A DNA stretch of 64,000 bases from Cupriavidus sp. MP-37 (GTDB lineage: Bacteria > Pseudomonadota > Gammaproteobacteria > Burkholderiales > Burkholderiaceae). The notes beneath the pieces were generated by a model that saw only the letters and a list, made by a program, of their open reading frames with translations, did no database searches and was not told where the DNA came from. Where the stretch lies: NCBI RefSeq assembly GCF_020618415.1, contig NZ_CP085345.1, positions 2,418,001 through 2,482,000 of the forward strand, in the 5' to 3' direction. Shown piece by piece: positions 523 through 24,787 of the stretch. The position numbers and the translations under genes are program-made. Positions within the stretch are counted from its first letter, which is position 1, and every line of letters starts with the position of its first letter.

Positions 523-1827
523 ATGTTCGATTGGTTCCGTGATTTGTCGCGCATGGAGCGCAAGGGATTCTATGGCGCGTTCCTGGGGCATGCCGTCGAC
601 GTGTTCGACTTCATGATCTATTCCTTCCTCATCTCCACGCTGCTGGGGCAGTGGGGCATGAGCAAGTCGACGGCGGGGGCGATCGTCACCTGGACGCTGG
701 TGTCGTCGCTGGTCGGGGCGATCGGGGCCGGCATCCTGGCCGACCGCTACGGCCGCGTGCGCGTGCTGCGCTGGACCATCATCGTATTCGCGGGCGCGTG
801 CTTCCTGTGCGGGCTGGCGCAGTCGCCGGAGCAACTGATGGTTTTCCGCATGATCCAGGGCCTCGGGTTCGGCGGCGAGTCGTCGCTGTGCATGGTGCTG
901 GTGACCGAGATGATCCGCAACCCGGCCCACCGCGGCAAATACTCGGGCTTTACCGCGAGCAGCTATTCCTTCGGCTGGGGCGCGGCGGCGATCGTGTATG
1001 CGATCACGTTCAGCGTGCTGCCGGCGGAGACGGCATGGCGCGTCTGCTTCTTCCTCGGCATCCTGCCGGCGCTGGTGGTGATCTACCTGCGCCGCAACCT
1101 GGAGGAGCCCGAGATCTTCCTGAAGAGCCGCGCCGCCGGCCACCATGGCTCGGCGCTGGCCGGGCTGGGCCGGCTGTTCCGCGGGCCGCTGCTGGCCAAG
1201 ACGCTGCTGTGCAGCCTGCTGTCCGGCGGCATGCTGGGGGCGTATTACGCCATTGCCACGTGGCTGCCCACCTTCCTCAAGACCGAGCGCGGCCTGTCGG
1301 TGTTCGGCACCAGCTCCTACCTGGCGGTCACGATCATCGGCTCACTGGCCGGCTACGTGGCGGGCGCCTATGCCACCGATCGCTGGGGCCGGCGGCTCAC
1401 GTACATCGTATTTGCCGCGGGAGCCTTCATCGCCGCGCTGGTCTACATGGTGATCCCGGTGTCCAACACGTCCATGCTGTTCCTCGGCTTCCCGCTGGGC
1501 GTGCTGATGCAGGGCGTGTTTGCCGGCATCGGCGCGACCATCGCCGAGTCCTATCCCAACGATGTCCGCGCCACGGGTTATGGCGTCTCGTACAACGCAG
1601 GCCGCGTGATCGGCTCGCTGTTCCCGCTGTCGGTCGGGTGGCTCAGTTCCGGGCACACCTCGCTGCCGGTTGCGATCGCCATTGTCGCTGGGGTTGGCTA
1701 TGCGATGGTCGTGGTCGCCGCGGCGCTGCTGCCCGAAACCACCGGCATGGACCTGGAACAGGCCGGCGGCAGTGGCGGCAAGGAAGACCCCACGCCGCTG
1801 GCGCGGCCGGCGGGGACGGTGGCCTGA
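523..1827 (+). CDS. MFS transporter, organic-acid/sialate:H+ symporter-like
   Basis: This 434-residue protein has about twelve hydrophobic segments, the usual size for a major facilitator. The loop between segments 2 and 3 carries the family signature (GILADRYGRVRVLRW, residues about 71-85), with a second copy near GAYATDRWGRRLTY in the C-terminal half. The N-terminal FDFMIYSFLI segment is typical of metabolite:H+ symporters for aromatic or carboxylic acids. A strong GGGGAGGGG ribosome site sits just before the ATG at 523. It probably works with the upstream amidase. The stop lies only 27 bp from the displaced tauE tail at 1855, which marks the left edge of the AbiE-like island. The substrate is not predictable from sequence. 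Confidence 0.85.
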   Translation: MFDWFRDLSRMERKGFYGAFLGHAVDVFDFMIYSFLISTLLGQWGMSKSTAGAIVTWTLVSSLVGAIGAGILADRYGRVRVLRWTIIVFAGACFLCGLAQSPEQLMVFRMIQGLGFGGESSLCMVLVTEMIRNPAHRGKYSGFTASSYSFGWGAAAIVYAITFSVLPAETAWRVCFFLGILPALVVIYLRRNLEEPEIFLKSRAAGHHGSALAGLGRLFRGPLLAKTLLCSLLSGGMLGAYYAIATWLPTFLKTERGLSVFGTSSYLAVTIIGSLAGYVAGAYATDRWGRRLTYIVFAAGAFIAALVYMVIPVSNTSMLFLGFPLGVLMQGVFAGIGATIAESYPNDVRATGYGVSYNAGRVIGSLFPLSVGWLSSGHTSLPVAIAIVAGVGYAMVVVAAALLPETTGMDLEQAGGSGGKEDPTPLARPAGTVA

Positions 1828-1854
1828 AGCTGCTGGCAGGTGCTGTCGGTGCCG

Positions 1855-1971
1855 TCAGCGCACCCATGCCGAAATCGCCGGCAGCATCAAACAGACCCCG
1901 ATCCCGATCAGCACCCCGAACGCGACACGCCGCGTCGTGGTGGGCGAGAACGGCGGCGGAAAGCGGCGTCC
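1855..1971 (-). pseudogene. Displaced 3' end of tauE (last 38 codons plus stop), left island boundary
   Basis: On the minus strand this stretch reads as the C-terminus of a TauE/SafE protein ending in ISAWVR and a TGA stop (1855-1857). It matches 4070-4186, the end of the intact tauE, at 114 of 117 positions; I count mismatches at 1867, 1868 and 1893. The reading frame and stop are undamaged, so this looks like a real gene end cut off from its body rather than decayed sequence. There is no start codon or upstream part, so no product is expected. The pair is best read as a target duplication made when the island between them entered the 3' end of tauE. Confidence 0.8.
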
Positions 1972-2062
1972 GGACAGCATCGGACCCGCGGCCAGGTATG
2001 AGCTGCGCGTACAGCGCTGAATAACGTACGCAACCGGCAGGTGTTGTATGATGTTCGTGCAA

Positions 2063-2081
2063 TGTACGCGTTACGCGTACA
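2063..2081. promoter_or_regulatory. Inverted repeat at the start of the AbiEi-like gene (candidate autoregulatory operator)
   Basis: The arms TGTACGCG (2063-2070) and CGCGTACA (2074-2081) form a perfect 8-bp inverted repeat around TTA, ending at the base before the ATG at 2082. Related half-sites occur upstream: CGCGTACA at 2008-2015 and CGTACGC at 2025-2031. A TATGAT hexamer at 2047-2052 could be the -10 element, so a protein bound here would block transcription or initiation. Known AbiEi antitoxins repress their own promoters through inverted repeats, so autoregulation is likely. No clear Shine-Dalgarno sequence is visible. Confidence 0.55.
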
Positions 2082-3152
2082 ATGGCGAAAATTCGAACAT
2101 CACATGTGATGCATACAACGCCCGCAGACAAGCAAATCCTGCTTCATGCTGCCGCCAGCGCCTTCCGTTCTGCGACTGCCCTGGGCGCGGACGCCGTGCC
2201 GGCATCAACGCGTTCCGACTTGCAGCCGGACGGCTCAATGCGTTTCGATCTGGGTGACGGAGGTATCTGCACCTTGCCTGTGACGGTGCGCCGTGCGGTG
2301 GATCGTTTCTCCGCCGTGTTCCCGATCGTGGAAATGCAGCGTCGACTTGGACAGAAGGTGCTGCTCGTCACGTCATACGTGTCACCCGACATGGCCGAGC
2401 GCCTGCGCAGCCATGACATCGCCTTTATCGATACCGCGGGCAACGTTTCGCTGCGCTTGCCCAATGCATTGTTATACGTGGTGGGTCGGCGCGCGCCGGC
2501 TGGCGGCGTGCCGCAGCGACGCGCACGGACCGCAAGCCCCAAGCAGCTGGAAGTCCTGTTTGCACTGATCGCGAACCCTGGGTTGCTGAGCGCTCCGTAC
2601 CGGTCCATCGCCAACGCGGCCGGCGTTGCCCTGAGCACGGTCAATCTTGCACTGGACGACCTGCTCGAACGCGGCCTGGTAGGGGTAGGGGATGACGGCA
2701 AGCGCCGCTTCATTGACTGGGAGCGTGTCGTCGACGAATGGGCGACGCTTTATCCGCTGCGGCTCCGGCCGAAACTGGCGAGCAAGCGATTTAGCGCCAT
2801 GCGGCCTGATTGGTGGCGGGGCATCGACCATCACCGATACGACGCCGTCCTTGGAGGCGAGGCGGCCGCAGAGAAGCTTGCGCATAATCTGCGGGCCGAG
2901 CGCATCACGCTGTACGCCAGTTCGGCGACGCCTCGCGAACTTATCCTCGACGCGAGGCTGAAGGCAGACCCTGGCGGCGAAGTGGAGATCGTGCAGCGCT
3001 TCTGGCCAGGGGCGTTTACGGCGACTGCGGTCGCGATGCCTGGTGTTGCGCATCCGGTGCTCGTGTATGCCGATTTGCTCGATACCGGAGAATCGCGCAA
3101 TGTCGAGGCGGCGCGACAAATAAGAGAACAGTACCTTGCCCATCCTCCATGA
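2082..3152 (+). CDS. AbiEi-like antitoxin/regulator (COG4861-type, winged helix)
   Basis: This 356-residue protein resembles the AbiEi-type antitoxins paired with nucleotidyltransferase toxins. The N-terminal half (about 70-145) has the alternating pattern of that family, with VLLVTSYVSPDMAERL and FIDTAGNVSLRL. A winged helix-turn-helix follows at about 160-205 (SIANAAGVALSTVNLALDDL), then a C-terminal domain with a DWWRGIDHHRYDAVLGG stretch. By family analogy it would bind its own promoter and neutralise the toxin encoded next. A second in-frame ATG at 2109, inside the palindrome 2098-2111, may be the real start. The next gene overlaps its end by 17 bp, implying translational coupling. It lies within the island at tauE. 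Function in this organism is inferred. Confidence 0.75.
   Translation: MAKIRTSHVMHTTPADKQILLHAAASAFRSATALGADAVPASTRSDLQPDGSMRFDLGDGGICTLPVTVRRAVDRFSAVFPIVEMQRRLGQKVLLVTSYVSPDMAERLRSHDIAFIDTAGNVSLRLPNALLYVVGRRAPAGGVPQRRARTASPKQLEVLFALIANPGLLSAPYRSIANAAGVALSTVNLALDDLLERGLVGVGDDGKRRFIDWERVVDEWATLYPLRLRPKLASKRFSAMRPDWWRGIDHHRYDAVLGGEAAAEKLAHNLRAERITLYASSATPRELILDARLKADPGGEVEIVQRFWPGAFTATAVAMPGVAHPVLVYADLLDTGESRNVEAARQIREQYLAHPP
2098..2111. promoter_or_regulatory. Perfect 14-bp palindrome at the alternative start of the AbiEi-like gene
   Basis: CATCACATGTGATG at 2098-2111 is its own reverse complement. It covers the in-frame ATG at 2109, which may be the true start. If translation begins there, both palindromes (2063-2081 and this one) would lie in the 5' leader and form a two-site operator. 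It could also be an incidental coding palindrome if the ATG at 2082 is used. Confidence 0.35.
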
Positions 3153-4035
3153 AATTCCGGCGGCGCGGCCGATCGACGCCGAAAGCAGGGCCTTGCTGGG
3201 CGACCTGGACGCGGTCGCGCGACAGCTTGGCATCTCCTACTTCGTTGGTGGTGCGACGGCCAGGCAAGTGATCCTCGAGAATGTCTTCGGCAATCCGCCG
3301 GCGCGGCGCACGTACGATATCGACATCGGAATCTGCATTGCCGACTGGGCCGAGCACGAAGCGCTGCGTCGGCAACTGGTCGCTACCGGCCGATTTCAAA
3401 CGGTCGACAAGAACGCGCACAAACTGACCTATCACCTCGGTGGCGAACGTGTGATGGTGCTCGATATCATTCCGTTCGGGGCCATCGAAAGGCCAGCTGC
3501 GAGCATCGCGTGGCCGCCGGCCATGGATACCGTGATGAACGTCGCAGGCTTTCGCCAGGCCTTCGATGCGGCGATCCGCATCGTGGTCGACGACGGACTG
3601 ATTGTCGCGTTCGCCTCGCTGCCCGGGCTGGCGATGCTCAAGCTGCTGGCGTGGCACGACCGTCATCGCGACGACAGACGCGACGCCACGGACCTGTTGA
3701 CCTTGTTATGCAGCTATGAATCAGCCGGCAATCAGGACCGGCTATACCAGCAGGAAGCTGCCCTGCTGGAGCAATATGGCTTTGACCTCGACATCGCCGC
3801 AGCAGCGCTGCTCGCGCGCGATGCCGCTGCACTGGCGCGCGGCGACACCGCAGTGACGAGGCAACTGGTTGCCGTACTTGGCGACGACAAGGTCTTTAGT
3901 CGGCTGCTCGAGCACATGGCGTTTGGCGAGCGCCAGCCAGTGCTCGGCGACAGCATGGACCCGAAGCGGGTCTATCCGCGCATGCAAGCGTTCCGGGCGG
4001 AATTCTTGGCAATGCTGGGATCCAAGCTGTCCTGA
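3136..4035 (+). CDS. AbiEii-like nucleotidyltransferase toxin (COG4849-type)
   Basis: This 299-residue protein has the features of the DNA-polymerase-beta-type nucleotidyltransferases that act as AbiEii toxins. They are FVGGATARQ at 36-44, the metal-binding pair in TYDIDIGI (Asp61, Asp63), and a downstream LKLLAWHDRHRDD helix near 168-180 with RRDATDL after it, as in the later AbiEii motifs. The only plausible start is TTG at 3136, because a stop lies in frame at 3121. An AAGAGA ribosome site sits 8 bases upstream. The start overlaps the AbiEi-like gene by 17 bp. In characterised AbiE systems the toxin is bacteriostatic and mediates abortive infection against phage. All expected catalytic residues look intact, so it is probably active. 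Confidence 0.75.
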   Translation: MPILHEIPAARPIDAESRALLGDLDAVARQLGISYFVGGATARQVILENVFGNPPARRTYDIDIGICIADWAEHEALRRQLVATGRFQTVDKNAHKLTYHLGGERVMVLDIIPFGAIERPAASIAWPPAMDTVMNVAGFRQAFDAAIRIVVDDGLIVAFASLPGLAMLKLLAWHDRHRDDRRDATDLLTLLCSYESAGNQDRLYQQEAALLEQYGFDLDIAAAALLARDAAALARGDTAVTRQLVAVLGDDKVFSRLLEHMAFGERQPVLGDSMDPKRVYPRMQAFRAEFLAMLGSKLS

Positions 4036-4069
4036 GCGGCGCCGCCGCCTGAGGCAAGGACGGCTTTCC

Positions 4070-4186
4070 TCAGCGCACCCACACCGAAATCGCCGGCAGC
4101 ATCAAACTGACCCCGATCCCGATCAGCACCCCGAACGCGACACGCCGCGTCGTGGTGGGCGAGAACGGCGGCGGAAAGCGGCGTCC
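4070..4186. repeat. 117-bp direct repeat, right copy (tauE 3' end), right island boundary
   Basis: This segment is the last 38 codons and stop of the intact tauE. It is 97% identical to 1855-1971 in direct orientation, at an offset of 2,215 bp. It restores the tauE reading frame, so the incoming DNA must have carried its own copy of the gene end. That is the usual outcome of integration into the 3' end of a gene. No recombinase gene lies between the copies. Confidence 0.85.
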
Positions 4187-4840
4187 CAGCAGCGTGGCGA
4201 TCACTACCACCGGCACCCCGACCGCGGCCTGCAGCCAGATCGCGGCATCGAGTTGCCCTTGCCAGGCCGAGAACAGGGTGCGCACGGACGAGGTCACGGT
4301 GAACACCAGGATCAGTGCGCAGCGGATTTCCACCGGCTTCATCGGCTGCCGGTAGAACTGGAAGATCAGCGGCGGCCCGGAGACGCCGAACATGCCGCTC
4401 AGCAGGCCGCCGAAGACACCGCTCATGAAGAAGCTGCCGTCGCCGGAACGTTGCGGCAGCGGTTCGGGTTTGAAGGCGGCGCTCAGGCCGCCGTACAGGA
4501 TGACCGCGCCCAGCAGCAGCTGCAGCAGCGTGGCGGCGGTGCTGCTCAGGTATTCCAGCACCAGCACGCCGACCAGCACCGAAGGCAGGATGCCGATCGC
4601 CGCCGCGCCCACGGCGCGCCAGTCGATATGCTGGAACTTGCCGGGCAGCGCGCAGGCGCTGTTGGCCAGCGTCACCAGGCTGACCACGGCGGCCACGGTG
4701 GCGACGGGCGCCAGCCCCAAGCCGCTGGTGGCGCCCATCACGATCATGCCGAGGCCAAAGCCGGTCACCGTCTGGAAATAGGTGCCGGCACCGAGCAGGG
4801 CCTGCAGGCCCAGCAGCGGCAACAACAGTTCTGCCTTCAT
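4070..4840 (-). CDS. tauE: TauE/SafE (DUF81) sulfite exporter
   Basis: This 256-residue integral membrane protein of the TauE/SafE family has about eight hydrophobic segments. Two related halves begin with GTYFQTVTGFGLGM (about 18-31) and FGGLLSGMFGVSGPP, the paired motif of the family. In Cupriavidus, a DUF81 protein encoded beside pta and xsc exports the sulfite released from C2 sulfonates, and the gene order here matches. The ATG at 4840 overlaps the pta stop (ATGA), indicating translational coupling. Its last 38 codons are duplicated at 1855-1971 and belong to the island boundary, yet the frame is intact. A role in sulfite or sulfoacetate transport fits the context; specificity is inferred. 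Confidence 0.88.
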   Translation of the reverse strand: MKAELLLPLLGLQALLGAGTYFQTVTGFGLGMIVMGATSGLGLAPVATVAAVVSLVTLANSACALPGKFQHIDWRAVGAAAIGILPSVLVGVLVLEYLSSTAATLLQLLLGAVILYGGLSAAFKPEPLPQRSGDGSFFMSGVFGGLLSGMFGVSGPPLIFQFYRQPMKPVEIRCALILVFTVTSSVRTLFSAWQGQLDAAIWLQAAVGVPVVVIATLLGRRFPPPFSPTTTRRVAFGVLIGIGVSLMLPAISVWVR

Positions 4841-5871: not shown

Positions 5872-5928
5872 GGTGGTTGGATGTGTAGAACGCAAAAAAG
5901 GGCCGGAGCCCTTGTCATGCTTGCGGTG

Positions 5929-6055
5929 TGCTCCCCTCTCCCGCGTGCGGGAGAGGGGCAGGGGGTGAGGGCAGGCGGTGGCACACCACCAGTCGGAACT
6001 TCGTGGGGATCCCGGCCCTCACCCCAACCCTCTCCCGCACGCGGGAGAGGGAGCA
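5929..6055. repeat. 127-bp BIME/REP-like palindromic element, copy 1
   Basis: The two outer arms begin TGCTCCCCTCTCCCGC and end GCGGGAGAGGGAGCA, so the whole element is an imperfect inverted repeat. Each arm also contains its own CTCTCCCGC/GCGGGAGAG hairpin, followed by GGGGTGAGGG on the left and preceded by CCCTCACCCC on the right. A second copy of the same 127-bp length lies at 24661-24787, with a different centre. This is the architecture of dispersed bacterial interspersed mosaic elements. Placed between xsc and pta, it could end or weaken transcription or protect the upstream mRNA. Confidence 0.8.
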
Positions 6056-24629: not shown

Positions 24630-24660
24630 GGTAGCGATTGCCTTCACCTTCCCGCGGGTT

Positions 24661-24787
24661 TGCTCCCCTCTCCCGCGCGCGGGAGAGGGGCGGGGGTGAG
24701 GGCGGGCGGTGGCAATAGCGATAGCTTTCACTTCGTTGATGCTCCCGCCCTCACCCCAACCCTCTCCCGCAAGCGGGAGAGGGAGTA
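24661..24787. repeat. 127-bp BIME/REP-like palindromic element, copy 2
   Basis: The same architecture as 5929-6055: outer arms TGCTCCCCTCTCCCGC and GCGGGAGAGGGAGTA, an inner hairpin in each arm, and GGGGGTGAGGG / CCCTCACCCC blocks facing the centre. The central ~45 bp differ from copy 1. It sits between the 3' ends of two convergent genes, a common place for such elements, and may stabilise or terminate both transcripts. Confidence 0.8.

Follow-up and report, generated by a model that had tools for sequence, protein, structure and literature searches.

An abiEi-abiEii gene pair between two copies of the tauE gene end in Cupriavidus sp. MP-37, probably marking a recent recombination scar in a variable locus

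In the window analysed here (the whole stretch of 64,000 nucleotides from Cupriavidus sp. MP-37), an abiEi-abiEii gene pair lies between two direct repeats, each of which is the end of the gene tauE. We consider the observation real and its explanation an ordinary one, to which we give a probability of about 60%: the AbiE pair would be a long-standing occupant of a variable locus that carries a recent scar, left by recombination between an 'empty' allele, in which an MFS transporter gene is followed by tauE, and an allele bearing the pair. The features concerned are listed in Table 1.

Table 1 Features of the tauE locus in the window
Feature	Position	Strand	Basis or remark
MFS transporter gene, left neighbour	523..1827	+	ORF; NCBIfam MFS matches under curated cut-offs
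Spacer from MFS stop to left tail copy, 27 bp	1828..1854	.	Length like that of empty sites
Displaced tauE tail, final 117 bases (left repeat copy)	1855..1971	-	114/117 identical to 4070-4186
Joint of tail copy with upstream region belonging to the pair (putative)	1972..1990	.	Sequence comparison
Degenerate second palindrome, GTATGAGCTGCGCGTAC	1996..2012	.	4 mismatches against the perfect copy
Operator-like palindrome, perfect, GTACGCGTTACGCGTAC	2064..2080	.	Sole site within 3 mismatches in the 64-kb window
abiEi, antitoxin/regulator	2109..3152	+	PF09952 AbiEi_2, E 2.9e-35
abiEii, nucleotidyltransferase toxin	3136..4035	+	PF08843, E 8.3e-8; TTG start
abiEii-tauE spacer	4036..4069	.	30 bp at 87% like C. 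alkaliphilus (G002); aligned with other carriers
Intact tauE (TauE/SafE family, 256 aa)	4070..4840	-	PF01925, E 1e-21; 4070-4186 is the right repeat copy

The first-pass annotation of this DNA had described direct repeats of 117 bp with 114 identical bases, each coding for the C-terminal 38 residues of TauE together with the stop codon, with the intact gene at the right copy and a displaced tail at the other, and all of this was confirmed. The mismatches are at repeat positions 13, 14 and 39, and the similarity breaks off abruptly past 1971 and 4186. Translation of the minus strand gave a product ending in ...GVCLMLPAISAWVR before the stop for the left copy and in ...GVSLMLPAISVWVR before the stop for the right copy; the two products differ in two amino acids (C vs S and A vs V). 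A repeat of 117 bp is far above chance expectation. With the left copy as query against the 6.1-Mb genome, only the left and the right copies were found at E <= 0.001 among the 40 of 96 candidates that were scored, the right copy matching with an E-value of 1.9e-51. In the search of the genus described below, one of the 60 genomes is listed with two tauE tails, that of Cupriavidus sp. MP-37. Self-comparison of 38 stretches of relatives (blastn, E <= 1e-6, at least 45 bp, at least 78% identity, low complexity masked) showed no direct repeat at the tauE spot, the other repeats sitting elsewhere. The window itself holds a second direct repeat, at 5925-6053 and 24657-24785 (131-bp alignment, 84% identical), which contains an inverted pair, CCCTCTCCCGC...GCGGGAGAGGG, and resembles a dispersed intergenic repeat.

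The AbiEi-like and AbiEii-like genes that had been proposed between the repeats were verified by PF09952 and PF08843, and the statement that no integrase fits in the 2.1 kb agrees with the two ORFs searched there, which are abiEi and abiEii; the remaining ORFs of at least 80 aa all overlap these two genes in other frames. Both Pfam matches are above cut-off, and the regulator gene is located directly upstream of the nucleotidyltransferase (NTase) gene, whose start overlaps the end of abiEi at 3136-3152. The matches of AbiEi to winged-helix models were all under their cut-offs. An alternative in-frame start of abiEi is present at 2082; since this lies immediately past the perfect palindrome (2064-2080), the start at 2109 is probably the one used. 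The NTase motifs are present in AbiEii as VGG37, DID61 and KLLAWHDR169, which correspond to hG[G/S], DhD and the lysine and arginine of motif III, and in an alignment of seven sequences, that of the window among them, its residues G38, G39, D61, D63, K169 and R176 do not vary. No NCBIfam model matched abiEi or abiEii, PADLOC gave weak matches only for the pair, and no significant PDB relative was found by sequence. The publication listed for Cupriavidus together with AbiEii is a genome paper on another genus.

Judged from these sequence features, abiEi and abiEii appear to make up an intact type IV toxin-antitoxin operon. It is similar to the known AbiE systems (AbiEi/AbiEii, DUF1814 NTase toxins) in being a two-gene operon with the regulator first, in both Pfam families, in NTase motifs I-III and in having upstream palindromes as in S. 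agalactiae, but it differs in the spacing of motifs I and II (21 vs 15 residues) and in motif III, which is of the KLxAaxxR form given for COG4849 in the accessible part of PMC3985639. The inverted repeats in the abiE promoter (Table 1) are putative operators; according to the same portion of that paper, the abiE promoter of S. agalactiae contains two inverted repeats that are bound by AbiEi (PMC3985639). Judged by family, AbiEi would presumably repress the operon through the palindromes and neutralise AbiEii, which in type IV systems takes place without binding of the toxin; AbiEii in turn would presumably block growth through nucleotide transfer. A toxin-antitoxin function and protection against phages may be expected of the pair.

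To see the locus across the genus, 60 genomes were searched, one per species and the window's (G000) included; of these, 28 form the tauE clade, having a tauE with at least 83% identity over nearly full length. The MFS gene is present in the stretch read in 24 of the 28, and in many relatives it directly abuts tauE: the gap between the two is at most 55 bp in 14 of the 24 (22-55 bp in 13, and a 4-bp overlap in G038), 81 bp in G059 and 154 bp in G043, while in eight, the window with its 2,242 bp among them, it is 2.2-6.8 kb and filled with varied cargo. The cargo was named by Pfam for 10 ORFs of G056, G018, G034 and G050, and by tblastn for G057 and G024. It consists of the AbiE pair alone in the window and in C. 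alkaliphilus (G002); of a tctC-sulfatase-lysR group in G056; of this group and the pair, in the order lysR-abiE-tauE, in G057; of this group, remnants of the pair and a group II intron reverse transcriptase in G018; of an autotransporter in G024 and G034; and of AIR-synthase-like, phosphonate-binding and transport genes in G050. The reverse transcriptase of G018 (RVT_1, GIIM; L078 10435-11832) lies next to tauE, inside what is left of the abiE genes, and the autotransporter, about 1,230 aa in length, is encoded by L102 959-4663 in G034 and by the matching stretch of L098 in G024.

Further arrangements involve cobT, which in the window genome lies about 15 kb to the left of tauE. Among the four clade members outside the 24, the order is cobT, AbiE pair, tauE in G025 and G040 and cobT, tauE in G015, and a short contig of G046 carries an abiEii remnant before tauE. 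The pair of G020 comes after cobT (CobT and CobS by Pfam), and about 13 kb ending in the MFS gene separate it from tauE. G006 has a pair of 56% identity on another contig in different surroundings. In G051 (L109), tauE and cobT are about 1.9 kb apart, and this stretch, in which abiE has no match, is perhaps another small cargo. Taken over the 60 genomes, AbiEii matches at E <= 0.001 are present in 13, several of them weak or partial, and the pair directly adjoins tauE in five (G000, G002, G057, G025 and G040). Twin palindromes are found upstream of the pair also in G020 and G025; related palindromes precede it in G002, G057, G018, G020 and G025, and an altered form in G040. The stretch from cobT or the MFS gene to tauE is a variable part of the chromosome, empty in some species and with differing cargo in others, and one AbiE pair has kept its place next to tauE in several of the species, with neighbouring cargo that differs.

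The nucleotide identities of the pair to that of the window are 91.5% in G002, 87.4% in G057, 78.0% in G020, 76.4% in G025 and 74.3% in G040, and those of tauE are 95.4, 94.6, 92.7, 90.9 and 86.0%, respectively. Over the 15 pairs formed by six carriers, which are non-independent, the ranks of abiE identity correlate with those of tauE (Spearman 0.95) and of rpoB (0.83). Because the ranks agree, the pair would be about as old here as the species splits, or else would have been swapped only among close kin, and it looks like an old resident beside tauE that is missing from many lineages. The abi tree was drawn with 7 of 9 rows, the remnants of G018 and G046 being below the length cut; the right-flank tree, with 12 of 21, was left out of account.

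The two tail copies of the window differ at 3 of 117 sites, and any tail from another genome has at least 6 differences from the right copy and at least 7 from the left. Since the two copies are closest to each other, the tail was probably doubled, or its copies last homogenised, after the lineage had separated from every species sampled. At repeat sites 12-17, most close relatives have ACGCCG, the left copy has ATGCCG, a state common to G055, G044 and G039, and the right copy has ACACCG, a state common to G019; it is as if each copy had changed once, though either state may have been imported.

We suggest that on one side a homologous crossover would have taken place between the MFS-tauE allele and the pair-bearing allele, and that on the other side an illegitimate joint would have formed at 1971/1972. 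The empty allele would thereby have left its tauE end behind on the left, with the pair and its own tauE end on the right, and such an exchange would need no integrase. The left side consists of the MFS stop, 27 bp and a tauE stop, which is the spacing of an empty site; the empty-site spacers of four close relatives are 22-28 bp long. In a comparison of the 27-bp spacer, the two best scores belonged to a tctC-type genome and to G002, so that an empty and a tctC-type parent are not told apart by it. At the joint 1971/1972 no microhomology could be demonstrated, the comparison covering reference ends of relatives rather than the presumed parent alleles. The segment 1972-1990 gave no significant match to the lysR, cobT or tauE ends of relatives, and its derivation from any of these ends is thus unsupported.

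Events of this kind have precedents. The products of homology-facilitated illegitimate recombination (HFIR) are one-sided, with homology at one end, an illegitimate joint at the other and no recombinase; according to the part of PMC3240628 available, the joints mostly use 3-10 bp of microhomology, a deletion of similar size is generally involved, and the process is rare in the laboratory (PMC3240628). A similar displacement of 3' ends has been proposed, in the accessible portion of PMC5361080, for Vibrio T6SS clusters, in whose effector-immunity arrays, as at Rhs loci, an added module would push the old gene end aside; here, in contrast, a toxin-antitoxin pair is the module, and what is doubled is the end of a single exporter gene. 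The first-pass annotation had raised, as a side suggestion, homologous exchange with a related strain, and this fits best. A footprint like that of an attachment site may form without an integrase, through allele exchange at a variable locus, which calls for caution where genomic islands are inferred solely from duplicated gene ends. RecA recombination between the repeats could now remove the pair cleanly.

Two other histories would place the origin of the left tail elsewhere. C. alkaliphilus likewise has the MFS gene, about 2.2 kb with the pair, and tauE, and it shares with the window the lack of the tctC-sulfatase-lysR group at the locus; a segment upstream of its abiEi resembles the window's tail with a score that none of 1000 shuffles reached in one test and none of 2000 in another. 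The doubling might accordingly be an old one, shared with the ancestor of C. alkaliphilus, overwritten from the right copy here and decayed there. If the trace is real, the duplication may be older and the near-identity of its copies may be due to gene conversion. The trace is, however, significant against some versions of the tail only: with four other tails, 30, 46, 323 and 34 of 2000 shuffles reached the score, and in a further shuffle test the counts were 33, 93, 452 and 16 of 1000 for a longer segment and 14, 22, 14 and 0 of 1000 for a shorter one, on which a lysR-end control was nearly equal (28 of 1000). It was also missed by blastn, which detected no second tauE tail in G002, G057, G025 or G040. 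A decayed left copy in C. alkaliphilus is doubtful, and we regard an old shared duplication as rather unlikely. The left tail might instead be a templated filler, a copy of 117 bp of the nearby tauE end on the same chromosome that closed the break after a deletion of the tctC-sulfatase-lysR group. This would agree with the position of the group, which in three close relatives (G057, G018 and G056) occupies the part of the gap next to the MFS gene, with the lack of a close copy of the sulfatase in the window genome (best 33%) and with the tail copies being each other's nearest relatives, but the left copy begins at the tauE stop and the spacer before it is as long as in empty sites, both of which follow from an empty allele without further assumptions, and a filler seems to us quite improbable.

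Integrative elements occur in the 3' ends of protein-coding genes such as icd, guaA and prfC. The locus resembles them in that the gene end is restored and a second end is displaced, but no integrase is among its ORFs searched, and the other carriers show no clear duplication. The first-pass annotation had favoured a minimal phage-defence island, integrated site-specifically by a recombinase acting in trans, for which the 3' end of tauE would be an attachment-like site. The direct repeats and the restored gene end do resemble attL/attR, and the spacing on the left is that of an empty site; yet in G002, G057, G025 and G040, where the pair also adjoins tauE, blastn detects no tail copy, and the presence of the pair is patchy while its divergence keeps step with that of host genes (tauE and rpoB) in the six carriers. 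The comparison of the tauE 3' regions of relatives that had been proposed did find empty sites and other cargo, but that cargo comes without a tail duplication, and the Pfam search of the 10 insert ORFs of G056, G018, G034 and G050 returned no site-specific recombinase, only the group II intron reverse transcriptase. The same two genes without a tauE duplication, or as an old vertical inheritance, which the annotation itself had named as contrary evidence, is largely what the relatives display. AbiEii had no match in the phage collection searched, and of 19 pattern matches in viral contigs none was confirmed; its plasmid relatives comprise 28 records, every one below 60% identity. A phage or plasmid origin of the pair was rejected on these grounds. 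One short plasmid match was seen in the flanks. The publications listed for tauE in connection with genomic islands and integration sites deal, by title and abstract opening, with other matters. With empty sites, carriers lacking a clear duplication and no recombinase among the ORFs searched, we do not adopt a mobile island as the main reading, and consider it very improbable. There is an equally slight chance that the pair and the adjacent tauE tail form a recombinase-free cassette, looped out by RecA as a circle of 2,215 bp; if so, it could be reinserted by homologous recombination at any Cupriavidus tauE end, to which the gene tail would direct it like an address label.

On the left of the locus, the final 300 bp of the MFS gene (1528-1827) are about 8-11% different from those of eight close relatives, and the 900 bp preceding 1528 only about 4-7%. 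The raised divergence at the gene end may reflect recombination extending into the gene, or simply a fast-changing end.
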